41,098 bases of DNA from Candidatus Brocadiia bacterium (GTDB lineage Bacteria > Planctomycetota > Uabimicrobiia > Uabimicrobiales > JABWCH01). The position numbers and the translations under genes were made by a program. The stretch is from contig JABWCH010000013.1 of assembly GCA_013359215.1 (NCBI GenBank), positions 1 to 41,098 on the forward strand. Reading direction: 5' to 3'. Positions 13,521 through 36,388 of the stretch are shown piece by piece (position 1 is the first letter of the stretch; every line of letters starts with the position of its first letter). The notes under the pieces were generated by a model. The model worked only from the letters and a program-made list of their open reading frames with translations. It made no database searches and was not told where the DNA came from.

Positions 13521-13581
13521 AGATAGAATATAAAATAGCAGACTTTTTATCTTTAAAAATTTAAAGATTTTGGGAAAAAAT

Positions 13582-14754
13582 ATGAATTCCATTATCAACT
13601 TTTTTAGAAAAGCCAGGATACACTTTTTGCGCAAGGTGCTTGAAAAAGGGGGAAAATTCGATATGGCTATGGTAAAGCCAGCTCCTTCTTTTTTGGGAAA
13701 GCTTATGTCTCCTCTAAGAAACTGGCTTATACCTTCAGAACGATTTGAATACATCTATACAGGCCCTATGGGCTTTGCTGTTTTGCGTGCAGCCTGTAAT
13801 ATTGGCGTTTTTGAGCTTTTGGACAAAAAGCCAGGTCTTAAGATTGCTGAAATTGCAGAGGCTTTAAAGCTGGAAGAATATCCTGCAAAATTGCTTTTGA
13901 TGGCATTGGTATCAATCAAGATGATTTATAAAATAGGCGATGAATACTATGGTGATCCTTTTCTTGTCAAGCCGCTTTTGAAGGATTCATGCGATGGATT
14001 TATGCTAAAACAATTAGAATACACACATCATCTGATTGCTCCTGCTATGCATTGTCTGCAAGAGTCTATTATAAAAAATAAGCCTGTTGGTCTTACTCAT
14101 CTTTTTGGCGAAAATGCAGGGAACTACTATTATGAAGTAGCTCAGGATAGCGAAAGAAATCGTTGCTTTGAGCAATTCATGAATTCTTTTAGCCAGATCA
14201 ACCAGCCTAGAATTGCATCCATGTCTGTTTTTTCTCGTTTTAAAAAAATTCTGGATGTTGGTGGAAATACAGGCGCACTTGCTATGTCTATCGCTAGAAA
14301 CCATCCTGATGTTAAAATTACTGTTTTTGATTTTCCTAGCGTGGTCGAGTCAGCAAAAAAGAATTTTAAAGAAAACCAGCTTGATAATCGCTTAGATGCT
14401 ATAGGAGGAAATATTTTAGAGAGTCCTTTGCCTCAAGGATATGACTGTGTTATCTTTTCTCATTTTATTGATCTATTGTCAGAAAAGATGAACAAAGAGC
14501 TAATCCAAAAAGCCATGCAGAGTCTTGTCCCTGGAGGCACATTATTTATTTTCTCTCCTATTGTTAACGATGAAGAAACCGAACCTTTTTTAAACTGCAT
14601 GATGGGGCTTTATTTTCTATGCCTTGCGAATGGAGTAGGACAGTTCTATAGTGGAAAAACCATTATGGACTGGATGAAAGAGGCAGGTTTTCATAAGTTG
14701 GAAAAGCGTCTTTTACCGTTTGATGAAGCAGTGTTTACAGGTCAAAAACCTTAG
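13582..14754 (+). CDS. O-methyltransferase family 2-like SAM methyltransferase
   Basis: A 390-residue two-domain protein. A winged-helix dimerisation region (about 58-135: GFAVLRAACNIGVFELL, IAEIAEALKL, then YLxDP-like YYGDPFLVKPLL) precedes a Rossmann methyltransferase domain. SAM motifs are ILDVGGNTG (223-231), TVFDFPSVVE with the acidic D250, and LVPGGTLFIFSP. The set resembles acetylserotonin/hydroxyneurosporene O-methyltransferases. The usual catalytic His-Asp pair after motif IV (H-D-W in plant enzymes) reads F-I-D here by my alignment, so the classic base may be missing and the reaction is uncertain. ATG 13582 is preferred over the upstream TTG (13570). It starts a run of genes continuing into the LolA-like and barrel genes, 23 nt before the next. 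Confidence 0.8.
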   Translation: MNSIINFFRKARIHFLRKVLEKGGKFDMAMVKPAPSFLGKLMSPLRNWLIPSERFEYIYTGPMGFAVLRAACNIGVFELLDKKPGLKIAEIAEALKLEEYPAKLLLMALVSIKMIYKIGDEYYGDPFLVKPLLKDSCDGFMLKQLEYTHHLIAPAMHCLQESIIKNKPVGLTHLFGENAGNYYYEVAQDSERNRCFEQFMNSFSQINQPRIASMSVFSRFKKILDVGGNTGALAMSIARNHPDVKITVFDFPSVVESAKKNFKENQLDNRLDAIGGNILESPLPQGYDCVIFSHFIDLLSEKMNKELIQKAMQSLVPGGTLFIFSPIVNDEETEPFLNCMMGLYFLCLANGVGQFYSGKTIMDWMKEAGFHKLEKRLLPFDEAVFTGQKP

Positions 14755-14777
14755 GTGTTATTTTGAAAGGATTCAGA

Positions 14778-16286
14778 ATGAAAAAAATCCTATGCGTTTT
14801 GTTGTTTGCTTTAAGTCTTTGCCCTTTATTGCTTTCTCAAGAAATAACAGCATTGAAGATTATTGAGAATGCAGATGATGTTCGTGGCGCAAAGAATTGG
14901 GGATTTTATGCATCTGTCGTCGACTATGATGGTACAAAAATTTTGACTCACAACAAATACCGTGTAACGGCAACGACGTTTGGCGAAAGACCAAATGATG
15001 TTTATAAATCTTTGGCATTCTTTGTTGAGCCTACCAACGTAAGAGGCCAGAAATCTTTAAAAGATGGACAAGTCTATTGGCAATATTTTCCTGATACAAA
15101 AAACCTGGTCAGAATCTCTGGTGCTCAAAGACTTTCTGGTCAAGTTACCGCCGCTGACCTTGCATCTTCCAACTTCGCAAGCGATTACAATGGTAAAATC
15201 CTTGGTGAAGAAGATGTTTTAGGAAAAAAATGCTATAAACTTGAGCTTTTGCAGAAGAATGAAGAAGTAGCCTATTATAAGCTTACCTACTGGGTAGAAA
15301 AGGAAAGTTTCCATCCTATCAAAGCCGATTATTATGCTATTTCTGGTACTCTTTTGAAAACCGCCTATTTCCGTGATTATAAAATGGCTTTAGGCAAACT
15401 CAAACCTCATGAATTTTTCGTTGTAGATCCCTTGAAAAAAGGCCATGTTACCCGCATGTTGTATTCCAGCATGAAACCAGAGACCATGCCTGAATATTTC
15501 TTCTCAAAAGAAAATTTGGAAACAGCAAAAGCTCCTCAGGATAGCAAGGTAGAAGAAGTGGCTGATGGTGGAACATCTGCTTATGACATCATGGCTAAAG
15601 CTGACGAAAGAAGATGCGGAGATGACTGGAAATTCAAAAATGTAGTATATGAATTCCAACCTGATGGCAATAAGCCTAAACTCGTTTCTACAGACGAATA
15701 TCTTGTAAGATCTAAAATTTTTGCAAAAGAAGATGGTCAAAATGACACCAAATCTTTCGTAGAATTTTTAGCTCCTGCTGCAACCAGAGGACAAAAACTC
15801 TTGAGAGATATGAGAGTCTATTGGCTTTATTTCCCTGGCACAAAAAATGTTGTCCGTATTTCTGGCTCTCAGATATTGTCTGGACAAGTAACAGCAGGCG
15901 ATATTGCTGCCACAAACTTTACAAACGATTACAATGGCAAAATTCTCGGAGTCGAGAACCTCGCTGATCTTAAGAAAGTATGCTATAAACTCGAACTAAC
16001 AGCAAAAGAAGAAGGCGTTTCTTATGCTAAACTCATGTATTGGGTAGAAAAAGATACTTTCAATCCTATTAAGATAGACTATTATTCTGTATCAGGAAGC
16101 CTTTTAAAAACTGGGTATTACAGAGACTTCAAAGCCATCAGTGCTGGCAGCGATGTCATTAAGGCTCATGAGCTTTTCATTGTCAATCCTCTTGTAAAAA
16201 ACCATGTCACAAGAATGATTTTCAAAGACATTGAAAAAGAAGTATCTCCTGAATATCTGTTTACAAAAGAAAATCTTTCCAAATAA
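14778..16286 (+). CDS. Periplasmic LolA-like protein with tandem-duplicated domain
   Basis: A 502-residue exported protein. Start at ATG 14778 with AAAGGA 6 nt upstream; a signal peptide (1-20, ending LLLS/QE) follows. Two copies of one domain lie at about 24-245 and 262-500. Each contains an ADD/ADE-R opening, a TN/ATRGQK(S/L)L motif, VYWxYFPxTKN, VRISGxQxLSGQVTA, DYNGKILG, a CYKLEL strand, YWVEKxxFxPIK and a closing VTRM...PEYxFxKENL. This wording matches the outer-membrane lipoprotein-sorting (LolA-like) family (COG2834 type), which normally has one such domain in about 250 residues. LolA-like proteins hold acyl chains in a half-barrel and shuttle lipidated cargo across the periplasm. The duplication is unusual. 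The following two genes are a membrane-anchored relative and an outer-membrane barrel. Confidence 0.82.
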   Translation: MKKILCVLLFALSLCPLLLSQEITALKIIENADDVRGAKNWGFYASVVDYDGTKILTHNKYRVTATTFGERPNDVYKSLAFFVEPTNVRGQKSLKDGQVYWQYFPDTKNLVRISGAQRLSGQVTAADLASSNFASDYNGKILGEEDVLGKKCYKLELLQKNEEVAYYKLTYWVEKESFHPIKADYYAISGTLLKTAYFRDYKMALGKLKPHEFFVVDPLKKGHVTRMLYSSMKPETMPEYFFSKENLETAKAPQDSKVEEVADGGTSAYDIMAKADERRCGDDWKFKNVVYEFQPDGNKPKLVSTDEYLVRSKIFAKEDGQNDTKSFVEFLAPAATRGQKLLRDMRVYWLYFPGTKNVVRISGSQILSGQVTAGDIAATNFTNDYNGKILGVENLADLKKVCYKLELTAKEEGVSYAKLMYWVEKDTFNPIKIDYYSVSGSLLKTGYYRDFKAISAGSDVIKAHELFIVNPLVKNHVTRMIFKDIEKEVSPEYLFTKENLSK

Positions 16287-16500: not shown

Positions 16501-19059
16501 ATGAAAAATGATGACAATGAAAAAATAGATAATTTTTTCCGTCCAGAAGAAGATCCTTCCCAAAATGAAGAGCTGCATCCTCAGTTGGAAAATCTTTTGG
16601 AAGAAGAAGAGGATGAAAGAAAAAATTCTATTGAGCAAATCAAAAATGTAACGCATATTTTAAAAACGCAATATAGAGATGATCTCCTCAAAAGCTCCAA
16701 TGACGTTGTTTTGACACAGTCTAAAAAGATTTTGCAGGACAGCATGCAAAAGACAAGAATTTTTCAGAGTGCGCCTGTCAAGGATAGTGTTACTGCTGAA
16801 TTGATTAAAGAAACCCAGATGTTGCAAAAAATCTTAGCAAACAACCTGGAATACATTGAAAATTTGGGAAATAACGCAGATCAAGGTATAAAAACAAAGA
16901 AAAAAGCTCTGAAAATATACCAGATAATATGCCTTTTTCTTTTAGGCATTACGGTAGGTCTGGTTGGCTACTATAAACTCGTTTTGACAACCGAAGAGCA
17001 AGAACATTGGAAGAGTTTAGTAGCAGATAAGCTGAGAGATTTAAAAATATTAGAGGAGAAAGTAGAAGAGAAGAAGCAGCTTGTTGAGAACAAAGAAAAA
17101 GAAGTTACTCAAAAAGAACAGCAAGTTGTGACAAAAGAGAAAGAAGTTGGACAAAAAGAAAAAGAAGTTGCCAGCAAAGAAAAAGAAGTTGGACAAAAAG
17201 AGCAACTTGTAGGAAAGAAAGAAAAAGAGATTGGGCAAAAAGAAAAGCTCATTGTGACAAAAGAAAAAGAAGTTACCAAAAAGGAACAATGGGTAAAAAG
17301 ACAGAAAGAACTGCTTGATACACACCTACAACTCGAAGATAAAGCATCCCAGATTTCTGAAAGATTTGTATTGGAAAAAAAACTCCAGGATGTGCGATCT
17401 TTTGCTTCTAAAAAAGAAGAATCTTCTCAACAATTGTTCATGAAGGTGCGCAATCTCAACCTATCCTTTGATCCTGGATATGAATATATTTCCCAGGAGT
17501 TTTTCGTCACCATCCGAGAACCAGAGCGAAAGATGTGGAATCAAAAGCAAGAATATCTAAAATGGCTTGGCAATGCACTAGATAGCAGGAAAGAAATAGT
17601 GACTGCATGCCTGTCAGAGATCGCTCAAGTTAGAAAAAATCAAAATGAAGATTTGGATTTAATGGAAGAGCAAAACAAAAAATTTTCTGGAGAACTGGAT
17701 AATGTAGAAAAATTTTTGAACATCCATGAATCCTTTTTAACAGAACTTTCTGACTATGATAGTAAAGCTGACCGTGCTACAAAAGAATACGAAACCATTC
17801 TGATCCGCGAATTGACATACTTCAAAGATGTATTCCAAAATTTACAAACTTTGGATGATCTGCAAAATAAAACAGCAAAAGCTTTAGACGAAGCCTCTGA
17901 AAAAAAACAAGACGATCAAAACATCCTCATAGAGCAAAAACAAAGCATTGCAGATGTAAAAAAAGACTTGCCAGTACTTTATAGAAAATATATCCAAAGA
18001 TTCCAGGAATTGTCTCATGAATATATGTCTGTCATAAAAAATTCCCCTAAAATAGACGTAGAGCATGGATTTTCAGCAAAGGAAATTGCGAGTGCAGCAC
18101 TTGAAATTTCTTCAAAATCTAAGGCTCTTCAAGGACAAATACCTCAAATTCAAAAAATTTATGGAAGTCTGGATCGGTCTAATGAGCTAGAAAGCTTAGA
18201 GAAGAAGGTCAACCAGTCCTTTGTTGCTTTGAATTCTATTGTGATTCCAGAAAAAAAGCCCACACCTACTGTTGCTGTTAAGCCTACGTCACCTGACATC
18301 AAGAAGACTGTAGAGCCTGGGCAGGCAGATATAGAAAAAGCGGTTATGGAAATGGGGCAATTGTTTGAATTTTCTCCTGCTGAATACCTCATGGATGTTC
18401 AATTTTTTGCCAAAGATGGTGCTAAGTTTAAAGTAGCTCACCAAATGCAATTTAAAATCCTATCCAAAAACAAAGGCGAAATGAAAGATATGGCAAGATT
18501 TTTTATTGCTAAAACCCTTCTCCCCAGGCAAGAAAGAGGAACAGTTCTTTTGAAAAAAGATCGCCAGGTATGGGTTTATGATATAAAAGAAAGAAACATT
18601 GTCCGCAACTCTCCTGAAGGCGAAAGCGGTGGAGATAGCAAAAAGAAAATGCTCAATTCTCTTTTAAGCTTAGGGAGAATGAATCCTTATCTTTACTCGA
18701 TTGATCTAAAAAAAGAAACCGTGGTTGTGAACAATAAAAATGCTTATAGGGCAAGGCTGTTTTTAAATCAGACAGAATTTCCAGAGCAGCATCCTGAAGT
18801 TTTTGTCTTACTTAGCCAGGATACATTGAGTCCTTTTAAGCTGGAATTCTGCAACCAGAATAGCAATCCTGTAAAAATATTCTATCTCATGAACTACCAG
18901 GAAACCGAGCTAGGGAAGAAAGTAAAAACAATACAATTCCTTGACAATACAGACAAGAGCATGATTTTGCAAATTACCTATTCCAACATTAAAAAAAGAG
19001 AAATCCCTGATTACTATTTTGAAGAAAACTATATGACTACCTTCAGTAGTAGCCATTAA
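16501..19059 (+). CDS. Inner-membrane-anchored coiled-coil protein with C-terminal LolA-like domain
   Basis: An 852-residue protein with an AAGGGGAAAG ribosome site before ATG 16501. Residues 1-137 are acidic and soluble. One membrane helix lies at about 138-160 (YQIICLFLLGITVGLVGYY). A near-perfect seven-residue repeat of the KEKEVGQ type fills about 190-265 (some ten copies), followed by more predicted coiled coil to about 590 and a Pro/Thr linker. The last 240 residues (EFSPAEYLMDVQFFAKDG, then GTVLLKKDRQVWVYDIKER and NIVRNSPEGESGG) follow the strand pattern and wording of LolA-like domains, including the equivalent of VYWxYFPxTKNxVRIS in the preceding gene. I infer N-terminus inside, with the coiled coil reaching across the periplasm and presenting the LolA-like domain. 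Whole-protein function is unknown. Confidence 0.75.
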   Translation: MKNDDNEKIDNFFRPEEDPSQNEELHPQLENLLEEEEDERKNSIEQIKNVTHILKTQYRDDLLKSSNDVVLTQSKKILQDSMQKTRIFQSAPVKDSVTAELIKETQMLQKILANNLEYIENLGNNADQGIKTKKKALKIYQIICLFLLGITVGLVGYYKLVLTTEEQEHWKSLVADKLRDLKILEEKVEEKKQLVENKEKEVTQKEQQVVTKEKEVGQKEKEVASKEKEVGQKEQLVGKKEKEIGQKEKLIVTKEKEVTKKEQWVKRQKELLDTHLQLEDKASQISERFVLEKKLQDVRSFASKKEESSQQLFMKVRNLNLSFDPGYEYISQEFFVTIREPERKMWNQKQEYLKWLGNALDSRKEIVTACLSEIAQVRKNQNEDLDLMEEQNKKFSGELDNVEKFLNIHESFLTELSDYDSKADRATKEYETILIRELTYFKDVFQNLQTLDDLQNKTAKALDEASEKKQDDQNILIEQKQSIADVKKDLPVLYRKYIQRFQELSHEYMSVIKNSPKIDVEHGFSAKEIASAALEISSKSKALQGQIPQIQKIYGSLDRSNELESLEKKVNQSFVALNSIVIPEKKPTPTVAVKPTSPDIKKTVEPGQADIEKAVMEMGQLFEFSPAEYLMDVQFFAKDGAKFKVAHQMQFKILSKNKGEMKDMARFFIAKTLLPRQERGTVLLKKDRQVWVYDIKERNIVRNSPEGESGGDSKKKMLNSLLSLGRMNPYLYSIDLKKETVVVNNKNAYRARLFLNQTEFPEQHPEVFVLLSQDTLSPFKLEFCNQNSNPVKIFYLMNYQETELGKKVKTIQFLDNTDKSMILQITYSNIKKREIPDYYFEENYMTTFSSSH

Positions 19060-19097
19060 TACAATTTACCAAACCCTTGAATTTTAGACAGGATACC

Positions 19098-21497
19098 ATG
19101 AATAAAAGAAATTTTGGTAAAATAAAGATTGCTGGAATATTGTATGTTTTTTTCTTTTTTTTCTTCTGCTTAAATATAGCATCACAAGATATTTTTGGTG
19201 GTTTTGAGTTGCCTGGAGAAGAAAAGCCTGCTCCTCCTGCCGAAGAAAAAAAAGCAACAGAGCCAAAGCAGGAAGAAAAAATTCTGGAAGCTACCGAAGT
19301 GCCTGGAGAGCAGCCAAAATCTTCCGAAGAAAAGCCCAAAGCATCCTCAGAAGAGGATATGTTTCAATTTTTTGATTCTGGTGCAGCACAGCCAGGATCT
19401 AACACAGAAGTCGAGACAAATTCTGTTGATATTGAAGAAAAAATAGAAAAAAATTTAGAAAAAGCATTACAATATTTTAATCTTTATAGCAATTTTAAAA
19501 AAATAAAAAAGTCTTTTAAGACTAAAAAAGAAAAAAAAGAAGAAGCGCCTAAGGCTTCTCCTCAAGAAAAGATTACAACAGAAAAAGTAGATCAAAAAAA
19601 ACCACAGCAAGAAAAAACTCAAGAAACCAAAGCATCTAAACAAGAAACAGCTTTCGATGATTTTGCCATTCCTGGTGAAACCAAAGAAGAAACCTCTTTT
19701 GACGATTTTGCCATCCCTGGCGAAACCAAAGAAGAGCCAAAAGAAGAAACCTCTTTTGGGGACTTTACCATTCCTGGCGAAACCAAAGAAGAGCCGAAAT
19801 CTGTATTTGATGGATTTGACCTTCCTACAGGAGAATCTACACCACAAGAAGAGATTCAGTCTTCAACAGAAACAACTCCATCGGATACTCTTGATATCTC
19901 TCATATATCAGAATTGGGAGGTGTCATTGAAGAAGAAAAGCCACAAGAGCAAACCAAGCCAGAATCACCACGAAAAATACAGCCTGTGAAGAAAGTAGTA
20001 TCGACACAACCTGAAACACCTGTCTCTTCCGATCCACCGCCTTTTATGGATGAACTTCCTTCTCTTCCTGATCCTACTTCTGCATCTACAGAAGAAGCAG
20101 CAGAAGAGGATGATGATTTTTTCCCTCTTAATATGCGCACGCTGTTTGAATACAATGTTTTTGGGGTAAGCAGAAATTGTCTCTACAACCCTAAAAACAT
20201 GTTTCATATAGCCCATAACTACTCTCGTATCCTTGTAAAATTTGATTTTTCCCATTCTATATACGATAATGACGATATAGCCGCACCTTTTAAAGTAAAT
20301 TTTGAAATTCGAGACACAGTAGTTTATCGTAGCAAAACAGATAGCTCGGCAGACGATATAGTCACAAACTATATTCAGGAAGTCTTTTTCAACGTACAAT
20401 ACCAAAGACTTCAGATCGCAGCAGGTAAGAAAAATGTAAAACCTGGAGAAGGTGGTGGTTATGCATGGAATGTGGTGGATATTTTTAGCCACAATTCCAG
20501 CCTTTTTGAAGCCAATGCAGGCAACTGGAACAAAAGAGGAGATCGCCCTGGTCTTTATGGAATCTATGGACGATATTCTTTTGATTTCGCAGATTTTAGT
20601 TTTGCTTATACCCCTGATCTCACCAAAAAGAAAACTGGGCAGAAAATCGCAAGAAACGATACCGAATTCGTAGACAATACAAGCGATATTCTTATGCTTA
20701 AACTTTCCTGGCGTAACCTTTTTACTAAAGATTTGCTAGGAAAACCGCCTAGCGATATAACACCTTCTGCTCCTGATTTTATTTTTTCCTATCGCAGCAA
20801 TAGCCTTATTTTCGTAGAATCAGGCGGCCAATATGTTCCTGTTTACAAAAGCGACAATAGCTATAATTTTGGCCTTGTATGGTCTGTTGGCTTAGGAGAC
20901 AGCGTCATCCTAAGAACAGAACTAAACTATAGCACCACTACAGACATCCAGGAGATGAACCAGATTGGAGTATTTCCTGATGGTTCAAAACAATTTGAAT
21001 TCAAAAAGCGCAATGGATCCAATTTCGGGCTTATTCTGTCTATGGCTTATACCTTCTCCGATATAACTTTAGACCTGGAATATTACTACAACTCCAATGG
21101 ATATAAGCATGATGAGCTGGAAGACTATTTTGACAATGTGAAATACATCAACCAAAATCTTAACCATCCTTTCCCTCCTTTGCAAAGCTATTACTTTGGT
21201 AAGCTCGCACACGCTATTTCTTTTGATCCCAACAGTCTTGGACAGCATTACGCTTACATCTCTCTATCGAGATCCTGGAGTCTTGGACAGAAAAAAAGAG
21301 AATTGAGCCTTCGCTGCCTGAATATCTCCAGCTTGCAAGATTTTAGTGGTAGCGCAGCCGTATTCCTTACTTACAAATTTTTTAACTATGCCAATTTACA
21401 GGTAGATTTCAACTATTTTTATGGCAAAGAAAAGTCCATTTTTGGGTCTAACCCTTATGAATGGCTTTTGCTTGGAACGTTTGAATTCTTATTTTAA
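19098..21497 (+). CDS. Large outer-membrane beta-barrel protein with repeat-rich periplasmic N-terminus
   Basis: About 799 residues from ATG 19098, which has AGGA nearby; an in-frame TTG at 19077 has no support. A signal peptide with a six-Phe run is at 1-30. A long Glu/Lys/Pro-rich, low-complexity region follows to about 335. It contains near-identical units of the FDDFAIPGETKEE type (three at about 184-232, with looser relatives DIFGGFELPGEE at 31-42 and FDGFDLPTGES). From about 340 to the end, alternating aromatic/polar strands form a barrel (for example LVKFDFSHSIYDND, IAAGKKNVKPGEGGGYAWN, and FGLVWSVGLGDSVILRTELNY), ending EFLF with terminal Phe. It resembles alginate-export/DUF1302-like barrels in layout only. 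It follows the two LolA-like genes and is probably their outer-membrane partner. Confidence 0.72.
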   Translation: MNKRNFGKIKIAGILYVFFFFFFCLNIASQDIFGGFELPGEEKPAPPAEEKKATEPKQEEKILEATEVPGEQPKSSEEKPKASSEEDMFQFFDSGAAQPGSNTEVETNSVDIEEKIEKNLEKALQYFNLYSNFKKIKKSFKTKKEKKEEAPKASPQEKITTEKVDQKKPQQEKTQETKASKQETAFDDFAIPGETKEETSFDDFAIPGETKEEPKEETSFGDFTIPGETKEEPKSVFDGFDLPTGESTPQEEIQSSTETTPSDTLDISHISELGGVIEEEKPQEQTKPESPRKIQPVKKVVSTQPETPVSSDPPPFMDELPSLPDPTSASTEEAAEEDDDFFPLNMRTLFEYNVFGVSRNCLYNPKNMFHIAHNYSRILVKFDFSHSIYDNDDIAAPFKVNFEIRDTVVYRSKTDSSADDIVTNYIQEVFFNVQYQRLQIAAGKKNVKPGEGGGYAWNVVDIFSHNSSLFEANAGNWNKRGDRPGLYGIYGRYSFDFADFSFAYTPDLTKKKTGQKIARNDTEFVDNTSDILMLKLSWRNLFTKDLLGKPPSDITPSAPDFIFSYRSNSLIFVESGGQYVPVYKSDNSYNFGLVWSVGLGDSVILRTELNYSTTTDIQEMNQIGVFPDGSKQFEFKKRNGSNFGLILSMAYTFSDITLDLEYYYNSNGYKHDELEDYFDNVKYINQNLNHPFPPLQSYYFGKLAHAISFDPNSLGQHYAYISLSRSWSLGQKKRELSLRCLNISSLQDFSGSAAVFLTYKFFNYANLQVDFNYFYGKEKSIFGSNPYEWLLLGTFEFLF

Positions 21498-21544
21498 TAT
21501 TTACCCAGGGCATTGCCAATTTAATATTTACCCAGGGCGTTGCC
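21493..21544. repeat. Two tandem 25-bp direct repeats
   Basis: Copies at 21493-21517 and 21520-21544 begin TTTAATATTTACCCAGGGC and differ at one base (CATTGCC against CGTTGCC). The first overlaps the stop codon of the barrel gene. ACCCAGGGC-type wording recurs loosely at 32283-32305. Confidence 0.8.
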
Positions 21545-21551
21545 CCATAGA

Positions 21552-21746
21552 TGTCAATTTAAAGGATAAGCAGAGCGTTAGTGTAAGCCTTCTGTAAGGA
21601 ATCAAAAACAGTACCGCCTGGCGCATCAAAAAATTTTATTCCACACCGAAGCCTGGCACAAAGAAAAGATTGATACCTGTTTTTTTGATTCCCGAAAGAA
21701 GGCTTACACGGAGCGACTGCTTCAGTTTGACCTTCTTAAGTTGACA
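21552..21746. repeat. 195-bp imperfect palindrome (MITE-like element)
   Basis: Nested inverted arms: TGTCAATTTAA (21552-21562) with TTAAGTTGACA (21736-21746); AAGCAG (21568-21573) with CTGCTT (21717-21722); and long inner arms 21581-21611 with 21677-21709, which begin GTGTAAGCCTTCT and end AATCAAAAA...CAG. The 65-nt centre contains GCCTGGCGC/GCCTGGCAC direct repeats. There is no ORF. Size and terminal inversion suit a small non-autonomous mobile element or a giant hairpin. I see no clear target duplication. Confidence 0.72.
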
Positions 21747-21756
21747 GCGTTATTGG

Positions 21757-21784
21757 TTGGCATGTTAACCCCATACAATATAAA
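21757..21784 (+). promoter_or_regulatory. Candidate promoter of the polyketide cassette, with two GTTAAC sites
   Basis: TTGGCA (21757-21762), a 16-nt spacer and TATAAA (21779-21784) match sigma-70 boxes at 5 of 6 positions each. The palindrome GTTAAC occurs inside the spacer (21764-21769) and downstream (21799-21804). GACGT-TC-ACGTC (21811-21822) is a further inverted repeat. These could be operators. It lies directly after the palindromic element and about 100 nt before the first gene. Confidence 0.5.
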
Positions 21785-21891
21785 GAATTATATGAAAAGT
21801 TAACACGTATGACGTTCACGTCTAAGCTTGCAACCTATTGCAGTTTTACAATAAAATTTTGTTCCCTTCTAAATCACGAATAAAACCAATT

Positions 21892-22809
21892 ATGATAAAA
21901 AAAGTTGCTGTTCTATTCCCTGCTTTTGGCATGGGATATAAAATTTCTTTTCCTTCATACCAGGAAGAATATAAAACACTTCTAGCTCTGGCCTCCAAGG
22001 TTGTCAAAATTGATGAAAGCCAATTCGAAAAAATATCGAATCATATTATAGAAGATGATTTGCAGGCACATTATTTTTGCTATATACAAAGTTGTCTTAT
22101 ATCTCAAATATTGAAAAAAGAAAATGTTCCTTGCGATTATGTAGCTCCTTACAGCATGGGCATTTTTTCAGCACTTGTATATCTTGGCTCTTTGGATTTC
22201 CAAGAAGGTCTTTTGCTTATGGATTATACTTGCAGATCCACAATGCTATGCGTTGACAAAGCAAAACAATATGGTATGGGGGCGGTTATTGGGCTTACTT
22301 TGGAGAACGTACAAGAAATTCTCGCTACAGGCTTTCCTGATATTGAAGTGGCAGATGTAAGCAATGACCATGTCGTTTTAGTAAGCGGGGTTGCCCAGGA
22401 AATACAGAGACTTCTTCCTGTTGTAAAAGAAATAGGAGCTATACAGAGTAAAATGCTACCGATTTCTTTGCCATACCATTCCAGGTTTATAAAAAATGTT
22501 TTGCAAGAACTCCAAAGCTATGTAGATAAAATGAACATCAAGCCTCCTATGTATCCTCTTATTTCTGGTGTAGACCAGAGGTTTTTAGACAATCCTGATG
22601 AAATCAAAAAAGAACTGGTGGTAAGTATCAGTCAGTCTTTAAATTGGGTAGGCAGCATTAGAAAGTTGCTTACCCTGGGCGTGTCTGTTTTTCTGGAATG
22701 TGGAGCTAGCGACAGCCTGGTGAAAATGCTTCGTTTCATGGATGGGGATTTTGAAGCATATCATCCTAAAAATTTTGATAAATTTTTTAAAATTTTAAAG
22801 GGAAACTAA
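21892..22809 (+). CDS. FabD-like acyltransferase with YSMG nucleophile motif
   Basis: A 305-residue malonyl-CoA:ACP transacylase-fold protein. The nucleophile serine is in APYSMG (Ser88), where the family has GHSxG, so the His before Ser is Tyr. Arg115 (CRSTML) occupies the carboxylate-binding position of malonyl-specific enzymes. His196 (SLPYHSR) matches the catalytic His of FabD (SVPSH). The N-terminal LFPAFGMGY replaces the usual FPGQGSQ. It therefore keeps the Ser-His dyad and malonyl Arg but belongs to a divergent branch. It is the first gene of the cassette, 5 nt before the first crotonase. No acyl carrier protein is in the window, so the acceptor is unknown; it could serve a carrier protein elsewhere or act on CoA esters. 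ATG 21892 is preferred to an upstream TTG at 21838. Confidence 0.82.
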   Translation: MIKKVAVLFPAFGMGYKISFPSYQEEYKTLLALASKVVKIDESQFEKISNHIIEDDLQAHYFCYIQSCLISQILKKENVPCDYVAPYSMGIFSALVYLGSLDFQEGLLLMDYTCRSTMLCVDKAKQYGMGAVIGLTLENVQEILATGFPDIEVADVSNDHVVLVSGVAQEIQRLLPVVKEIGAIQSKMLPISLPYHSRFIKNVLQELQSYVDKMNIKPPMYPLISGVDQRFLDNPDEIKKELVVSISQSLNWVGSIRKLLTLGVSVFLECGASDSLVKMLRFMDGDFEAYHPKNFDKFFKILKGN

Positions 22810-22814
22810 AATAC

Positions 22815-23555
22815 ATGGATAAAAAAGATTGGCTTTTGGATTCTGGCTTGCTTCGTACCTGGAAACAGGGTACAATAGGGTATATACAAATCCATCGCCC
22901 AGAAAAAGCAAATGCTTATAATGAAAGCCTGCTTGATACCTTTTTTTCTGTTCTTCCTCAAATAGAATCCGATGAAAGCATTCGGGTTATAATTATAACA
23001 GGCGCAGGAAATCGTTCTTTTTGCGCTGGTGCTGATTTAGAAGAAATGCAGACAAAAGACTATCGTGCAGCTTTAAATCTTAAAAGCGCAAGGCTTTTTC
23101 ATGCTGTTGCAGCATCGTCTAAAATAACATTAGCTTGCATCAATGGTGCGGCTGTTGGCGGTGGTTTAGAGCTGACACTGGCATGCGATCTTAGAATTAG
23201 CTCAAATCAAGCAAGATTTTTTTTTCCTGAAACAAAATTTGGCTTGATCCCTGCTGCTGGTGGAACACAGAGATTATCCCAGCTTTTAGGAGTCGCTAGA
23301 GCAAAGGAATTGATTCTAGGGGGACGTATATGGAGTGCAGAAGATGCCTTAAAAAATGGATTAGTCACAGAAATTGTACCCTTTGCTGAACTCATTTCCA
23401 AAGCCCAAAAATGGGGAGAAGAAATTGCACAACGTGACCCTGTTGCTCTGGAATTCGCTAAAAAAGCTATTGAAATGGAATATAGCTCGCATACAGGTTA
23501 TAATTATGAAAGAATTGCGGAAGCTTTACTCTATCAACTAAGGCTCAAAAAATGA
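22815..23555 (+). CDS. Enoyl-CoA hydratase/isomerase (crotonase), DpgD-like
   Basis: A 246-residue crotonase. The oxyanion-hole segment FCAGADLEEM (69-78) and GGGLEL carry the family signature. Both catalytic glutamates of true hydratases are present: E119 (GGGLE) and E139 (FPET), followed by LIPAAGGTQRL. It should be a competent hydratase/dehydratase on CoA thioesters. In the glycopeptide DPA pathway, DpgD is the crotonase with canonical residues, acting with DpgA and DpgB to dehydrate and aromatise the tetraketide. By position next to the type III synthase I infer the equivalent role. Stand-alone it would simply be called enoyl-CoA hydratase. The stop overlaps the synthase start by 4 nt (ATGA), implying coupled translation. 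Confidence 0.85.
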   Translation: MDKKDWLLDSGLLRTWKQGTIGYIQIHRPEKANAYNESLLDTFFSVLPQIESDESIRVIIITGAGNRSFCAGADLEEMQTKDYRAALNLKSARLFHAVAASSKITLACINGAAVGGGLELTLACDLRISSNQARFFFPETKFGLIPAAGGTQRLSQLLGVARAKELILGGRIWSAEDALKNGLVTEIVPFAELISKAQKWGEEIAQRDPVALEFAKKAIEMEYSSHTGYNYERIAEALLYQLRLKK

Positions 23556-24643
23556 ATATGATAAACAAAAATAAAATACAAGACTTTGTATATCCTGAAA
23601 ATGGGCCTCGTATTGTTTCTATTGGCACTGCCAATCCAGGTACACGTTACTCTCAAGAAGAAATCGTGAAGCTTTACCATGAAACAAACCCTATTATAGT
23701 TGGTCTTTTCCAAAATAGCCATATCAAACACAGACATTTGATTCTTCCTGAGCCAGTGAATGGAGTTATGCCAGAAGAAACCAATGAACAACTCATTGCC
23801 AAACATAGAAAAGGTGTTGAGGAATTTGGCGCAAAAGCTGTTGAAGAATGCCTGAATCCTTTAAACTTGGGCCCAAGGGATATTGATTTTTTATGCTGCG
23901 TTAGCAGCACTGGCTTTCTTTGCCCTGGAATCACTGCCAGGCTGATAAAAAAAATGGGATTTCGAGAGAATGTTCATCGCATCGATATTTTAGGAATGGG
24001 CTGCAATGCTGGATTAAATGCCATAAATCCAGTTGTTTCCTTTGCTAAAAGTAACCCAGGAAAACTTGGTCTTATGGTTTGCACAGAAATATGCTCTGCT
24101 GCTTATGTCTATAATAAAACTTTGAATACTGCTGTTGTGAATTCTCTTTTTGGTGATGGCGTTGCAGCCGTTTTGGTTCGCCAAGACAACGCAGATACAT
24201 GGAAAAAAGGCCCTATTGTACACGATTTTGAATCTCATATCATAGTCGATTCTATTGAAGCTATGAAGTTCGAACTAGAGCGAGATAAACTATCTTTTTT
24301 CTTAGACAGAGATATCCCTTATGTTATTGGCCTTAACATAGAAAAACCTGTAACTCGTCTTTTAAAGAGAAATAATCTGAAACTCAGGCATATAAAACAT
24401 TGGCTGGTGCATTCTGGCGGCAAAAAAGTACTAGATGCCATTGAGTACAATCTTGGACTTACAGACTATGATGTTCGCCATACACTCCATATTTTACAAA
24501 ATTTTGGAAACCTTTCTTCTGGCTCCTTTTTGTTTTCTTATAAAGAGCTATGCAAAGAACAAATCATTGAGGAAGGCGATCTGGGCGTTGCTATAACTAT
24601 GGGGCCAGGCACTACGATTGAAACTGCTTTGCTTGTATGGTAG
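23552..24643 (+). CDS. dpgA: Type III polyketide synthase, DpgA-like (3,5-dihydroxyphenylacetyl-CoA synthase type)
   Basis: A 363-residue chalcone-synthase-fold enzyme. The Cys-His-Asn triad is complete: Cys151 in GMGCNAGLNA, His287 in VHSGGKKVLDA and Asn320 in FGNLSSGSF. The Asn and the GNLSSG/LFSY wording separate type III synthases from FabH and HMG-CoA synthase. The GCNAGLN, HSGGKKVxDAxxYNLGL and DVRHT stretches are those I associate with DpgA. DpgA condenses four malonyl-CoA into a C8 chain that cyclises to 3,5-dihydroxyphenylacetyl-CoA with help from the crotonases DpgB and DpgD. Two crotonase genes flank it here, which supports the assignment. ATG 23552 overlaps the previous stop; ATG 23558 is an alternative. 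Product identity is inference. Confidence 0.85.
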   Translation: MNMINKNKIQDFVYPENGPRIVSIGTANPGTRYSQEEIVKLYHETNPIIVGLFQNSHIKHRHLILPEPVNGVMPEETNEQLIAKHRKGVEEFGAKAVEECLNPLNLGPRDIDFLCCVSSTGFLCPGITARLIKKMGFRENVHRIDILGMGCNAGLNAINPVVSFAKSNPGKLGLMVCTEICSAAYVYNKTLNTAVVNSLFGDGVAAVLVRQDNADTWKKGPIVHDFESHIIVDSIEAMKFELERDKLSFFLDRDIPYVIGLNIEKPVTRLLKRNNLKLRHIKHWLVHSGGKKVLDAIEYNLGLTDYDVRHTLHILQNFGNLSSGSFLFSYKELCKEQIIEEGDLGVAITMGPGTTIETALLVW

Positions 24644-24708
24644 GCGATAAGAATCAAATAAATTCACGATTTTTAACCAAATACAAATCAAATGCAAGAG
24701 GAATCATA

Positions 24709-25461
24709 ATGAAAAATTACAGTACTTTACAAATACAAAAAGAAAAAGACGTTGCAACGATTTTTTTGCACCGCCCTGAAAAAAAGAATGCAATCAATAT
24801 CCAGATGGTCAATGATCTCACAGATGCTTTGGATACAATAGAGGATACAAAAGAAATAAAATTTTTAATCCTTCGGAGCAAGGAAAGCCTTTTTTGCTCA
24901 GGTCTTGATTTAGAAGATGTTACCTCTAAAAATCCACCCGATATTTATGGTTTCCAAAAATGGGAAAAGATGTGCCATAGAATAGAAAATCTCAATAAAA
25001 TAACCATAGCTTCTATAGAAGGAGAATGTATTGGCGGAGGCTTTCAGCTTGTCCTTCTCTGCGATATACGTTTGGCGACCACAAGAGCTAAGTTTGCTTT
25101 TAATGAAGTCAGGAATGCTTTTCTTCCAGGCTTAGCAACATATCGTCTCGCGAAATATGTTGGTTTGGGTAAAGCCAAACAACTCATGATGGGCGATAGC
25201 CTGGATGCCAGGGATGCTCTTCATTGGGGGCTTGTCAATCAGGTTTGTGAACCAGAAAATATGCTAGAGATTATCCAGCAGAATTTAAACAATCATTCCT
25301 CTTTGCCGCTGCCTGCCTGGACACTCGCAAGAAGGCTTATGAATGAATGCTACTCTAGTCCTTACGAGAATTTTCTCGGACATTTTTTAGCAGCCCAACA
25401 TCGTGCTATCAATCTGGAAGATTTCCAGAAAGTTGCGCAACAACAGCAAGGTAAAAAGTAA
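24709..25461 (+). CDS. Crotonase-fold protein with Glu-to-Gln change, DpgB-like
   Basis: A 250-residue crotonase-superfamily protein. ATG 24709 is chosen because AGAGGA lies 6 nt upstream; an in-frame ATG 24 codons earlier (24637) overlaps the synthase gene. FCSGLDLEDV and IGGGFQLVLLCD align with the oxyanion hole and first catalytic position, where Glu is replaced by Gln (Q113). The second Glu is kept (E133 in FNEVRNAFLPG). One-glutamate crotonases often do isomerase, decarboxylase or helper chemistry rather than hydration. In the DPA pathway DpgB is the non-canonical crotonase that boosts DpgA output, so I infer a DpgB-like role. A bifunctional DpgC-type dioxygenase is longer (over 400 residues), so this is not DpgC. 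Confidence 0.8.
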   Translation: MKNYSTLQIQKEKDVATIFLHRPEKKNAINIQMVNDLTDALDTIEDTKEIKFLILRSKESLFCSGLDLEDVTSKNPPDIYGFQKWEKMCHRIENLNKITIASIEGECIGGGFQLVLLCDIRLATTRAKFAFNEVRNAFLPGLATYRLAKYVGLGKAKQLMMGDSLDARDALHWGLVNQVCEPENMLEIIQQNLNNHSSLPLPAWTLARRLMNECYSSPYENFLGHFLAAQHRAINLEDFQKVAQQQQGKK

Positions 25462-26050: not shown

Positions 26051-26568
26051 CAATATCTATCTTCTTCAAAAACACTTATTTCCATATCAAAAATCTTAAA
26101 AAGTTTCAAAAAGAAGAAATATAGGTTAAATCTTTATCTTTGCAGGATTTTATACGACTTTTTAAGTTGATATAAAAAATTTTAAGCTGTTTTAAAATTT
26201 TGTCGTGTTGAAAGAGAGCCTTTCCATGGCTCCTGTAATGCTGCAAGGGAGTTGGCGTAACACCCAATACCAAAGCTAATTTACGTTGCATCCTAAGTTT
26301 TGCCTCTTGGATTTCTGTAGGTTTAAGTCAACGGTGATTATCTCAAAAATAACCCCCTAGCTGACTTCTAACACCATAAGAGTCATTCCAACTACTTCAT
26401 CCAAAAAAAATATATCATGCTAGCCATTATAACGAAGAAATAACAAAGAGGAAAATGAGATAAGATTTTAACCTTCCTAAATTTAGGACAATTGTAACAG
26501 CAACTACCGTAAGAGTTTTTTTTTGATTGTGTAGTTACGCTGATAGCCAATTTTTTAGGAGTATCCAG
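26051..26568 (+). other. tuf leader region, no gene seen
   Basis: This 518-nt gap between the last tRNA and tuf has no credible ORF on either strand. Visible structure is modest: GAGCC/GGCTC around 26215-26235, a perfect 14-nt palindrome TCCTAAATTTAGGA (26475-26488), and AACTAC/GTAGTT (26502-26507/26531-26536) enclosing a nine-T run. TTGATA near 26170 followed by AT-rich sequence could be a weak internal promoter. RNase processing of the tRNA precursor is expected at the left end. Confidence 0.4.
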
Positions 26569-27753
26569 ATGGCTAAGGAAAAGTTTGAAAGAACTAAACC
26601 CCATGTCAACGTAGGAACTATTGGGCACATTGACCATGGTAAAACCACGTTGACCTCAGCAATCACCAAAACGCTTGCTGAACAAGGGTTAGCACAAGCA
26701 ATGGATTTTGATCAGATTGACAAGGCACCAGAAGAAAAGGCTCGTGGAATAACGATCCAGGTATGCCATGTTGAATATGAAACCACCAATAGACATTACG
26801 CCCACGTCGACTGCCCAGGACATGCAGATTATATTAAAAACATGATCACTGGTGCTGCCCAGATGGATGGCGCAATTCTCGTAGTATCTGCTCCAGAAGG
26901 TCCCATGCCACAAACTCGTGAGCATATTTTGTTAGCAAGACAGGTAAACGTTCCTTACATTGTTGTTGCTTTAAATAAAGCCGACTTGTTGGAAGACGAA
27001 CCTGATTTACTCGAAATCGTCGAGATGGAACTTAGAGAGCTTTTGACCAAATATGGCTTCCCTGGCAATGATATCCCCATCGTCAAAGTTTCTGGCTTAA
27101 AAGCAATGGAAGGCGATGAAAAATGGAGAAAATCTGTTCTCGATTTGATGGCAGCAGTAGATAGATATATTCCTACACCTGTCAGAGCAACAGATAAACC
27201 TTTCTTAATGCCAGTAGAAGACGTATTCTCCATCAAAGGACGTGGAACTGTAGGTACTGGTCGTATCGAACGCGGAATCGTCAAGGTCAATGACCCTGTT
27301 GAAGTCGTTGGTATCAGAGAAACCAAAAAGAGCGTTTGCACTGGTGTTGAAATGTTCCGCAAGCTTCTTGATGAAGGTATGGCAGGCGATAATGTTGGTG
27401 TTCTGCTTCGTGGTGTCGAAAAAGATGAACTGGAAAGAGGACAGGTTTTAGCCAAACCAGGATCTATCCATCCTCATACCCATTTCAAAGCAACTGTTTA
27501 CGTATTAAGCAAAGATGAAGGTGGAAGACACAAGCCCTTCTTCAATGGATATCGTCCTCAGTTCTATTTCAGAACCACAGACGTTACTGGAACAGTAAAA
27601 GTCATTGGTGCTGAAATGGTTATGCCTGGTGACAATGTTCAATTAGAGATTGAGCTGATTACTCCTATCGCAATGGAAAAAGAATTGAGATTTGCTATTC
27701 GCGAAGGTGGTAAAACAGTAGGTGCTGGTGTTGTCACTGAAATGTTGGAGTAA
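26569..27753 (+). CDS. tuf: Elongation factor Tu
   Basis: A 394-residue GTPase that delivers aminoacyl-tRNA to the ribosome. Start at ATG 26569 with AGGAG 7 nt upstream; the frame opens 14 codons earlier but those codons are not EF-Tu-like. G1 is GHIDHGKT (18-25), G2 GITI, G3 DCPGH with the catalytic His, and G4 NKAD. Domains 2 and 3 are complete, ending [10 protein letters not shown]. Length equals the family standard. It follows four tRNA genes and precedes rpmG by 3 nt, the position of E. coli tufB. Confidence 0.98.
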
Positions 27754-27756
27754 TCC

Positions 27757-27945
27757 ATGGCAAAAAAAGGTTCTCGTGAGTATCTGACCCTTGAATGTAG
27801 TGAATGTAAAAACAGAAACTACCGTACCAGTAAGCAAATGAAACCTAGGACTGCCAAAAAACAGGATCAAGTAGAAAAACTTTCTCTTAAAAAATTCTGT
27901 AAAGCCTGTCGCTTGCATACTGTGCATCGCGAAAGAAAAAGATAG
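27757..27945 (+). CDS. rpmG: 50S ribosomal protein L33
   Basis: A 62-residue bL33. The opening MAKKGSREYLTLECSECK and the closing KFCKACRLHTVH give two CxxC pairs, the zinc-binding (C+) form. GGAG at the end of tuf, 6 nt before the ATG, is the ribosome site, so it is coupled to tuf. Slightly longer than the typical 50-55 residues through a KPRTAKKQDQ stretch in the middle. Confidence 0.95.
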   Translation: MAKKGSREYLTLECSECKNRNYRTSKQMKPRTAKKQDQVEKLSLKKFCKACRLHTVHRERKR

Positions 27946-27957
27946 CGTAAATAAATC

Positions 27958-28092
27958 CAAACGCTGTATGCTGGATTATGGTACTTTAAAAATTGATTTT
28001 TAAAATGAGGAGACGATTGTTTCTATTATTGCTCTCTAAATATACATTTAGAAAAAACAATTTTTTAGGTTATTTTCAGTATACAGCGTTTG
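27958..28092 (+). other. Structured RNA element between rpmG and secE
   Basis: Arms 27958-27973 (starting CAAACGCTGTAT) and 28077-28092 (ending ATACAGCGTTTG) pair over 16 bp with one G.U. They enclose 103 nt that hold at least two more hairpins: TTTAAAAAT/ATTTTTAAA, and TCTAAAT-ATAC-ATTTAGA. No ORF or tRNA is present. It could be a processing site or a regulatory or small RNA. I do not recognise the family. Confidence 0.55.
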
Positions 28093-28159
28093 TTGCTTTA
28101 CCAAAGGACAAAAATAGCTGAAATTATTTCTGACTAATTTTTGAAAGGCAGACTAGGGA

Positions 28160-28630
28160 ATGTTTTTAAGCTCATACAAAACAAAACAAGGCAAAATAGT
28201 TCGATGGGGAACGTTCATTCTTTCCGCTTTATTGACTATATTTGCCATGTATCGTGTTTTTTACAGTTTCCCTTATATCAATGTCATTCCAGATGAAAGA
28301 CCAGATTTCTGGAAATGGGTATACCAAAGCCTGTTAAGCTTCACTATTCCAGGAGTAGATATTTCTATTACGGTGTCGCCAAGATTGATTTTCACTCTGG
28401 CTTTAGGCACCGTTTTGTTGTTGGTAATCGCGTATGCATGTTTCCGCAATATCCGCGTTTCTGAGTTCTTGATCGACACAGAAAGCGAAATGCGAAAAGT
28501 ATCGTGGCCAACATTAAGAGAAGTTGTCGATTCTTCCTTGGTAGTGATTATCGTCATTATTGCATTAGGTATCTATCTTTTCTTTGTAGATATGGGATTA
28601 AGCAAATTTTTTAACTGGTTATTTTTTTAA
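28160..28630 (+). CDS. secE: Protein translocase subunit SecE
   Basis: A 156-residue SecYEG subunit in the inner membrane. The conserved cytoplasmic amphipathic helix SEMRKVSWPTLREV (109-122) is followed by the essential last membrane helix (about 126-148). Two extra helices precede it (about 17-38 and 74-95), so this is the three-helix form as in E. coli, somewhat longer than E. coli's 127 residues owing to a loop at 39-72. The upstream ribosome site is weak (GAAAGG about 12 nt away). nusG follows 18 nt later. Confidence 0.93.
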   Translation: MFLSSYKTKQGKIVRWGTFILSALLTIFAMYRVFYSFPYINVIPDERPDFWKWVYQSLLSFTIPGVDISITVSPRLIFTLALGTVLLLVIAYACFRNIRVSEFLIDTESEMRKVSWPTLREVVDSSLVVIIVIIALGIYLFFVDMGLSKFFNWLFF

Positions 28631-28648
28631 ACTCAGGAACATTACACT

Positions 28649-29356
28649 ATGACTCTCCCAGAGCGGGATGAAAATAATATAGAAAAATCTTTATGTAAAG
28701 CAGAAGAGGAAACACCAACTGCAACAGAAGAAATTTCTGAACAAATTTCCCTTCAGGAGCCTTCTTCTTCGTCTGTAAAGAGCATTCTTTTGGGAAGTAC
28801 AGCTTCTCCAGAAAAAAGAGAAGACACTTTGCAATGGTATGTTGTAAGAGTGCAAAGCGGAAAAGAAGATAAAGTCAAAGCTGCTCTGGAAAACAGAGTA
28901 ATCGCTTTGGGAATACAAGACAAGATCCAACAGATCGTAGTTCCAACAGAGTTGATTTCTGAAATCAGAAAAGGCTCTAAGCGAGTTGTAGAAAGAAAAC
29001 TTTATCCTGGTTATGTAATGGTTTATATGATAAAGAATCAAGATACCCATTACATGCTGAAATCTACTCCAGGAATAGGGGAATTTGCTGGAATGATGTC
29101 AGAAAAAGAAGTAGAGCAAATGCTTGCTTCTTGTGGACAAACAAAAGATAATAAACCTAAGCCCAAAGTATCCTTTTGTAAAGGTCAGAGCATCAAAATC
29201 AAAGAAGGTGCTTTTGAGAATTATAAGGGTATAGTAGACGAAATTAACGAGCAAAAGGGAATTGTAAAAGTAAGAATCAAAATCTTTGGAAGATTTACCC
29301 AGATTGAGCTGGGATACTGGCAGGTAGAAAGTGTAGAAGATGAAGGGGAAGGCTAG
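28649..29356 (+). CDS. nusG: Transcription termination/antitermination factor NusG
   Basis: A 235-residue RNA polymerase-binding elongation factor. Residues 1-60 are an acidic, Ser/Thr-rich extension absent from E. coli NusG (181 residues). The NGN domain follows (about 62-165: WYVVRVQSGKEDKVKAAL, KLYPGYVMVYM, STPGIGEFAG), then the KOW domain (about 175-235: KGQSIKIKEGAFENYKGIVD, RFTQIELGYWQVE). There is no good internal start at the NGN boundary, so the extension looks real. The stop codon lies inside a hairpin that begins the rplK leader. Confidence 0.95.
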   Translation: MTLPERDENNIEKSLCKAEEETPTATEEISEQISLQEPSSSSVKSILLGSTASPEKREDTLQWYVVRVQSGKEDKVKAALENRVIALGIQDKIQQIVVPTELISEIRKGSKRVVERKLYPGYVMVYMIKNQDTHYMLKSTPGIGEFAGMMSEKEVEQMLASCGQTKDNKPKPKVSFCKGQSIKIKEGAFENYKGIVDEINEQKGIVKVRIKIFGRFTQIELGYWQVESVEDEGEG

Positions 29357-29535
29357 CAATTTTTAATTGCTTGTTTGAGCAGATAGATTTTATTATTAAA
29401 ATTTTTAAAACGCGCTTTACAAAAATACCCCTGATTGCTAGATAAAGCAGTAATCCAACAAATAAATCTGGTTTTTCAAAAGCTACATAAATAAAATGTA
29501 TAAAAATTTTCCAAAATTATAGCTAGCAATTAGGG
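29355..29535 (+). promoter_or_regulatory. rplK leader with alternative RNA stems
   Basis: The 261-nt nusG-rplK gap contains CTAGCAAT at 29353-29360, its complement ATTGCTAG at 29434-29441 and CTAGCAAT again at 29523-29530. The second and third copies sit in a 13-bp stem (29429-29441/29523-29535, one G.U). The first copy can instead pair with the second, or fold locally (29355-29361/29365-29371). Such mutually exclusive stems fit a regulatory leader. L1 is known to repress the rplKA mRNA by binding its leader in E. coli. Confidence 0.5.
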
Positions 29536-29617
29536 CAAACAAGGATCGAAGTATTAAATTTTTTAATATGTAGATTCATTTTAAAAGCCTGACCTGTTAT
29601 TTTTTTTAGAGGAATTT

Positions 29618-30043
29618 ATGGCTAAATCAGTTGTTGCAAAAGTGAAACTATTAGTGGTTGGTGGCCAGGCATCTGCTGCTCCGCCTGTAGGTCCAGCACT
29701 AGGTCAACATCAAGTAAATATTGGTGACTTTATCCGCCGATTCAATGAAGCAACGAAAGATCTCAAAGGAACAGACGTAGGCGTTATTTTAACAATTTAT
29801 AACGACAAATCCTATGATATGATCGTGAAAGGTCCTCCAGTTTCTGTACTCTTGAAACAAGCTGCTGGAGTTGCTAAAGGGTCTGGCGTTCCGAATCGCG
29901 AAAAAGTAGGTAAAGTAACCAAAGCTCAGGTTCGTGAAATTGTTCAGAAAAAAAAGAATTTTTTGAATGCACGAGATGAAGAACACGCTATGAGGATAGT
30001 AGAAGGCACTGCAAGAAACATGGGCATTAATATTGTTTCTTAG
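29618..30043 (+). CDS. rplK: 50S ribosomal protein L11
   Basis: A 141-residue uL11, which forms the GTPase-associated centre with 23S rRNA. Diagnostic stretches are the N-terminal VVGGQASAAPPVGPALGQ, the PPVSVLLKQAAG segment and the C-terminal GTARNMGI. Exactly the standard length. AGAGGA lies 4 nt before ATG 29618. rplA follows 76 nt later. Confidence 0.98.
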   Translation: MAKSVVAKVKLLVVGGQASAAPPVGPALGQHQVNIGDFIRRFNEATKDLKGTDVGVILTIYNDKSYDMIVKGPPVSVLLKQAAGVAKGSGVPNREKVGKVTKAQVREIVQKKKNFLNARDEEHAMRIVEGTARNMGINIVS

Positions 30044-30119
30044 TTGAGCTTGAAAATTCTTTTACATAGAAGTTCTTGAAAAATTTTTGAGTTTATCAGA
30101 AAAGTTTAAGAGGTAAAAC

Positions 30120-30875: not shown

Positions 30876-30892
30876 GCGAGAAGGAGATCAAA

Positions 30893-31426: not shown

Positions 31427-31432
31427 GAAGGT

Positions 31433-31987: not shown

Positions 31988-32005
31988 TTGCTTTATTTCA
32001 AAAAA

Positions 32006-36357: not shown

Positions 36358-36388
36358 TTTCCAAAAAATTTGTGGTGAAATAGAGATT

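Follow-up and report, generated by a model that had tools for sequence, protein, structure and literature searches.

A DpgA-type polyketide synthase cassette in a Candidatus Brocadiia draft genome and its probable connection to a type II fatty-acid-like line

The MAT-ECH1-DpgA-ECH2 cassette

The DNA analysed here, in the following called the window, is a stretch of 41,098 nucleotides from a Candidatus Brocadiia bacterium (GCA_013359215.1, contig JABWCH010000013.1), corresponding to contig C33 of a draft genome (G000; 6.39 Mb, 576 contigs, 84.7% complete). Its plus strand carries a cassette of four genes with intact reading frames, encoding a malonyl-CoA acyltransferase-like protein (MAT), a canonical crotonase (ECH1), a type III polyketide synthase of the DpgA family and a second crotonase (ECH2) (Table 1). 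A preliminary description of the window had considered the synthase and crotonase genes to be tightly coupled. MAT and ECH1 are separated by 5 bases, and ECH1 and dpgA overlap by 4; the coupling of dpgA to ECH2 is looser than it appears, because the ECH2 reading frame opens within dpgA but the homologues begin at Met 24709, the probable start. The MAT gene, at whose first base that description began without mentioning the gene, encodes a protein that retains the Ser, Arg and His residues, shows PYSMG at the GHSxG motif and has DisD as its nearest solved structure. Homologues of MAT were found close to DpgA in five other loci (L027, L028, L029, L030 and L050). A promoter and terminator scan gave nothing above chance.

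Table 1. Genes of the cassette, followed by genes upstream of it (window coordinates).
Feature	Position	Strand	Evidence
MAT, malonyl-CoA acyltransferase-like gene (MdcH/FabD/DisD type)	21892..22809	+	ATG 21892; TIGR03131 121.9 bits, TIGR00128 120.5 bits, both below cut-off
ECH1, canonical crotonase with both Glu, DpgD counterpart (supported)	22815..23555	+	PF00378 194.5 bits; SH-aLRT 96 group with DpgD
DpgA-family type III polyketide synthase (3,5-dihydroxyphenylacetyl-CoA synthase), Cys-His-Asn intact	23552..24643	+	363 aa; NF042429 449.4 bits
ECH2, Glu144-to-Gln crotonase, probable DpgB counterpart	24709..25461 (ORF from 24637)	+	PF00378 144.3 bits; SH-aLRT 99 clade
O-methyltransferase resembling FlxJ family (flexirubin cluster)	13570..14754	+	PF00891 97 bits; NF053543 149 bits, below cut-off 560
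LolA-like periplasmic lipid-carrier protein	14763..16286	+	PF17131 282 bits; hhalign E 3.5e-19 with LolA-like proteins of single-locus clusters L145/L157
Protein with C-terminal LolA-like domain	16501..19059	+	PF17131 39 bits, residues 672-846
Outer-membrane protein candidate (tentative)	19077..21497	+	hhalign E 6.4e-6, 118 columns, probability 85, versus outer-membrane-like protein of single-locus clusters; weak

Identity of the synthase and the crotonases

The synthase exceeded the cut-off (425 bits) of NF042429, the NCBIfam equivalog model for DpgA. Its catalytic residues Cys151, His287 and Asn320 lie in the motifs GMGCN, VHSGG and GNLSSG, in agreement with the complete triad reported in the preliminary description. 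Of 123 alignment columns without variation among 26 actinobacterial DpgAs, 102 were retained, compared with at most 64 in the non-DpgA type III synthases of the same phylum.

Relatives of the synthase were collected by a scan of a genome collection, from which the best 80 of 367 were examined. For the phylogeny, this set was supplemented with four actinobacterial DpgAs encoded on plasmids and with 15 type III synthases of other kinds, and ten actinobacterial sequences were removed. The 75 DpgA-like sequences were split from the 15 others with a support of 99 in the Shimodaira-Hasegawa-like approximate likelihood ratio test (SH-aLRT), which bears out the placement in the DpgA family; since the outgroup branches are long, depth within the family is less secure than membership. 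The actinobacterial DpgAs formed a single clade (100), and the synthase of the window fell into a separate, non-actinobacterial clade, to which the non-DpgA type III synthases of its phylum were only remotely related. There it belonged to a group of seven (99) with sequences from Rokubacteria, two Desulfobacteraceae, Thiococcus pfennigii, an Opitutaceae genome and a Chloroflexi genome; five members of this group have type II partner genes adjoining DpgA. At E ≤1e-60, DpgA was detected in one of 392 genomes of the phylum, that of the window. Four records titled Klebsiella pneumoniae or Bifidobacterium breve (L032, L040, L043 and L054) sit amid sequences of lake metagenome-assembled genomes (MAGs) in the same tree, and their titles are probably wrong.

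The residues of the two crotonases were those noted previously, i.e. both catalytic Glu residues in ECH1, and in ECH2 a Gln at the position of Glu144 of rat enoyl-CoA hydratase with Glu164 retained. ECH1 grouped with DpgD and other DpgA-linked ECH1s, and ECH2 with DpgA-linked ECH2s, nearly all of which, among those sampled, have the Gln, while one has His. The proposed likeness to DpgA, DpgB and DpgD was upheld in part. Phylogeny supports ECH1 as the counterpart of DpgD, but both crotonases failed the DpgD equivalog model NF042430 (cut-off 400; ECH1 153 bits, ECH2 101 bits), and ECH2, a probable counterpart of DpgB, lacks close similarity to the actinobacterial protein.

DpgC and DpgA loci outside the Actinobacteria

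As had been claimed from the window, DpgC is missing: throughout the 84.7%-complete genome the only matches were ordinary crotonases (28-34% over the crotonase domain). The reported absence of aminotransferase genes was confirmed for the window, which was the range searched and gave no match of the HpgT type. DpgC was found within 8 kb of DpgA in two of 58 non-actinobacterial loci (L073 and L085), compared with 25 of 26 actinobacterial ones; an ECH2-like gene was nearby in 51 and an ECH1-like gene in 31 of the 58. Judged by these sequences, the Gln-type crotonase is a near-constant partner of non-actinobacterial DpgA. The absence of DpgC from 56 loci indicates that a DpgA-crotonase module devoid of DpgC is the usual form outside the Actinobacteria among these loci, so that the cassette does lie outside the classic setting, as was stated, but is not unique in this. 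Complete DpgA-D genes have been described in the META-B cluster of Xanthomonas (PMC3849588), and a single cyanobacterial sequence has been placed in the DpgA clade (PMC8086630).

Some of the loci deserve separate mention. The myxococcote locus L073, with DpgA, crotonases, DpgC and a neighbour of 2147 aa, resembles the classic Dpg setting outside the Actinobacteria. Three cyanobacterial loci (L086, L091 and L092) carry ECH1-DpgA-ECH2 cassettes without DpgC, followed in L086 and L091 by a conserved gene of 340 aa; these two loci also yielded a weak methyltransferase match. A further setting of DpgA was seen in the lake MAG loci L043 and L049, which lie near type I polyketide synthase-like genes.

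Type II partner genes in relatives and in the genome of the window

Genes in the loci of relatives were called by a homology-guided procedure and by tblastn, and families were also assigned by homology among the clusters. In the closest relatives (Desulfobacteraceae, Thiococcus, Rokubacteria, Chloroflexi, a gammaproteobacterium and a myxococcote), the cassette lies within or near a cluster resembling those for type II fatty-acid and dialkylresorcinol synthesis. The partner genes encode a FabF-type ketosynthase (KS), an acyl carrier protein (ACP), a DarB/StlD-like ketosynthase III (KSIII), a DarA-like flavoprotein, a 3-hydroxyacyl-CoA dehydrogenase (3HCDH) and exporter proteins. Such hybrid clusters were found on single contigs in five loci (L027/G059, L028/G060, L029/G061, L030/G062 and L050/G064), and a partial one in L077/G065. 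The Desulfobacteraceae contig of G060 encodes KS, KSIII-like protein, crotonase, ACP, KS, ABC ATPase, FtsX-type permease, LolA-like protein and an outer-membrane-like protein, together with DarA-like flavoprotein, a sulfotransferase-like protein, FabI, 3HCDH, KS, MAT, ECH1, DpgA and ECH2. A single run of about 18 such genes is present in the gammaproteobacterium (G064). In the myxococcote (L036/G400), genes for KSIII-like protein and 3HCDH adjoin those for KS and ACP about 8 kb from DpgA, an arrangement that rests on an apparent overlap of L036 with contig C154. When the DarB model was applied to 13 other DpgA genomes, a match was obtained only in this myxococcote.

Matching genes were present in G000 itself. 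Contig C443 carries in one run genes for ABC ATPase, FtsX-type permease, crotonase, DarA-like flavoprotein, KSIII-like protein and 3HCDH, and contig C329 likewise carries KS, crotonase and ACP. The KS of C329, which retains Cys-His-His, clustered with KSs adjacent to DpgA (95), away from the FabF of the same genome on C325; three rows of the KS tree (L133, L135 and L139) with very long branches, apparently mis-extracted, were ignored. The two extra crotonases of C443 and C329 also grouped with those of hybrid clusters. Contamination was considered and rejected for both contigs, as their tetranucleotide correlation with the window was 0.54-0.66, compared with at most 0.36 for other genomes. In addition, the protease beside the KS of C329 was closest to genomes of the same family and order; for the gene flanking the run on C443, the match in the same family was only weak. 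At E 1e-50, the KSIII-like protein was found in two of the 392 genomes of the phylum, G000 and G037.

KSIII-like and DarA-like proteins

The KSIII-like protein of G000 (C443:1365-2498, L143) has StlD as its nearest solved structure and remained well below the cut-offs of the DarB/StlD models (NF005293, 114 versus 450 bits; NF053539, 90 versus 550 bits). In a set of nine homologues (L143, L145, L147, L150, L155, L156, L157, L161 and L166), the Cys is invariant, the position of the catalytic His is occupied by Asn in all, and that of the catalytic Asn by Tyr wherever the sequence reaches; these substitutions are conserved across phyla, and the myxococcote copy has the same residues. A DarB-family protein of Streptomyces (374 bits), encoded next to a homologue of the DarA-like protein, has kept Cys-His-Asn. 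Replacement of the triad suggests that the KSIII-like protein transfers a starter rather than carrying out an ordinary decarboxylative condensation, and that it is probably a transacylase.

The DarA-like protein (C443:2520-3428) was modelled with a mean pLDDT of 71.5 as a WrbA/flavodoxin domain (E ~1e-7) with additional C-terminal helices; no NCBIfam model matched it. Its homologue in G060 shares 32% identity with the protein beside the Streptomyces DarB-family KSIII.

Proposed pathway and alternatives

From the gene content, homology, active-site residues, phylogeny and co-occurrence observed directly, we infer a sequence of reactions, a product and a route of export. The cassette probably makes 3,5-dihydroxyphenylacetyl-CoA, which would prime a dedicated type II line leading to an exported resorcinol-headed lipid or pigment. 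DpgA would condense and cyclise four malonyl-CoA units, with ECH1 and ECH2 assisting dehydration and aromatisation. The resulting thioester would escape oxidation to dihydroxyphenylglycine and prime the type II line of fatty-acid/dialkylresorcinol-like character, the genes of which lie elsewhere in the genome. Within that line, the malonyltransferase would supply malonyl-ACP, the KSIII-like protein would hand the starter to ACP, the FabF-type KS would extend the chain, and the 3HCDH-like protein and the extra crotonases would process the beta-carbon. The DarA-like flavoprotein and an O-methyltransferase may tailor the product, and the FtsX-type ABC transporter and LolA-like proteins may bring it to the outer membrane. 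For the product, a saturated resorcinolic lipid and a polyene are both conceivable, as is a compound to which the DarA-like step has attached a second ring. The preliminary description, which had missed the malonyltransferase and the partner genes, had suggested that the product feeds another pathway; the partner genes give such a pathway a concrete identity.

Several observations weigh against this proposal. Each of the three gene sets of G000 occupies its own contig, and the link between them consists of homology and co-occurrence, not contiguity. The KSIII-like protein does not have the canonical His and Asn, which makes the step assigned to it tentative. G037 encodes KSIII-like, MAT-like and 3HCDH proteins on a 13 kb contig (L161, C28:7708-11736), and DpgA was missing both from that contig and, at E 1e-60, from the whole genome, indicating that the type II line may also run without DpgA. 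The Opitutaceae relative (L031) has the cassette and no KSIII-like protein in its draft genome, as is the case for many non-actinobacterial loci with ECH1-DpgA-ECH2, among them L078 and L079 of Acidobacteria. The last two observations would favour a cassette acting alone, whose 3,5-dihydroxyphenylacetyl-CoA would undergo hydrolysis or enter some unrelated pathway, the genes of C443 and C329 serving otherwise. We regard this as rather unlikely, as both gene sets are fused in single loci in several phyla, with the same sub-clades of DpgA, ECH2 and KS, and DpgA and the KSIII-like protein co-occur in just one of the 392 genomes of the phylum.

A different product of the synthase is also conceivable, for instance an alkylresorcinol, a pyrone or some other tetraketide built on an acyl starter. 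The synthase is only 47-50% identical to actinobacterial DpgA, and among the type III synthases of Planctomycetota the alkylresorcinol type is the common one (PMC10896814). The score above the DpgA equivalog cut-off, the retention of DpgA-invariant columns far beyond that in other type III synthases of the phylum and the presence of both crotonase partners make such a product improbable. A decayed dihydroxyphenylglycine pathway that has lost DpgC and the aminotransferase would account for DpgA, DpgD-like and DpgB-like genes without these two, but was rejected as very improbable, because absence of DpgC is usual in these lineages, the four genes are all intact and conserved, and the cassette includes a malonyltransferase gene foreign to Dpg pathways.

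A bolder reading, held tentatively and at somewhat less than even chance, is that resorcinol-headed lipids or pigments of the outer membrane form a class not described before. They would arise in at least six bacterial phyla through a type III-to-type II relay, in which a His-less KSIII-like enzyme would hand 3,5-dihydroxyphenylacetyl-CoA to the fatty-acid-type line. DpgA clusters and dialkylresorcinol clusters are each already known. In the open-access literature searched, no union of DpgA with a type II line, near-constant Gln-type crotonase partner or His-less KSIII-like enzyme was found. DpgA is known mainly from actinobacterial antibiotic clusters, in which its product undergoes oxidation on the way to dihydroxyphenylglycine or dihydroxybenzoate, and here the module appears joined to lipid-type machinery across varied Gram-negative lineages. 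If correct, the proposal would add a route to aryl-headed lipids besides those from coumarate and hydroxybenzoate. It would also point to a possible new function of KSIII-like enzymes that have lost the catalytic His, and would place a module on which glycopeptide antibiotics depend in a different context. The pathway would be open to testing in Thiococcus pfennigii, of which a named strain (Pfennig 8320) is on record.

Comparison with known systems

The DpgABD sets of vancomycin-type, venemycin and kendomycin clusters (Actinobacteria, also Xanthomonas META-B) share with the cassette a DpgA-family synthase, two crotonases and the expected intermediate 3,5-dihydroxyphenylacetyl-CoA. The window differs from them in having neither DpgC nor an aminotransferase gene, in its separate non-actinobacterial DpgA clade, in a Gln-type ECH2 distant from DpgB and in the malonyltransferase gene. 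Known dialkylresorcinol clusters contain DarA and DarB accompanied by KS, ACP and ABC genes (PMC3949708), and the cluster for flexirubin, a pigment of the outer membrane, contains a LolA gene (PMC3992019). The dialkylresorcinol (DarA/DarB/DarC), flexirubin and arcuflavin clusters resemble the present gene sets in a DarB/StlD-like KSIII adjoining a DarA-like flavoprotein, in KS, ACP, ABC permease and ATPase, and in a FlxJ-like methyltransferase and a LolA-like protein. They differ in that the KSIII-like protein described here scores far below the DarB cut-offs and has lost the catalytic His and Asn, and in that the aryl unit would derive from a type III synthase, not from coumarate or hydroxybenzoate.

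The planctomycetal alkylresorcinol operons (methyltransferase, oxidoreductase and type III synthase; PMC10896814) have a type III synthase and resorcinol chemistry in common with the cassette, and would come from a similar group of hosts should the present one be a planctomycete, but they lack crotonases and start from acyl units. Aryl polyene and xanthomonadin clusters likewise combine a type II line primed by an aryl unit with genes for export to the outer membrane. Unlike these, the gene sets of G000 were seen without a 4-hydroxybenzoate/coumarate AMP-ligase and a FabG/FabZ-type pair, and with 3HCDH and crotonases instead.

Genes flanking the cassette

Four further genes lie upstream of the cassette (Table 1). 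The O-methyltransferase is a likely, but unproven, member of the pathway. The LolA-like protein is a likely export component and the protein with the C-terminal LolA-like domain a possible one. LpxC and LolA-like genes support the Gram-negative host that had been proposed. On its 3′ side (region 26527-40892), the cassette is followed by four tRNA genes and EF-Tu, and the reading frames farther downstream resemble genes for ribosomal protein and RNA polymerase, an unusual site for a biosynthetic cassette. In the gap 5′ of MAT (21498-21891), a short direct repeat (tttacccagggc-ttgcc) is present, and a broken gene may have left remnants there.

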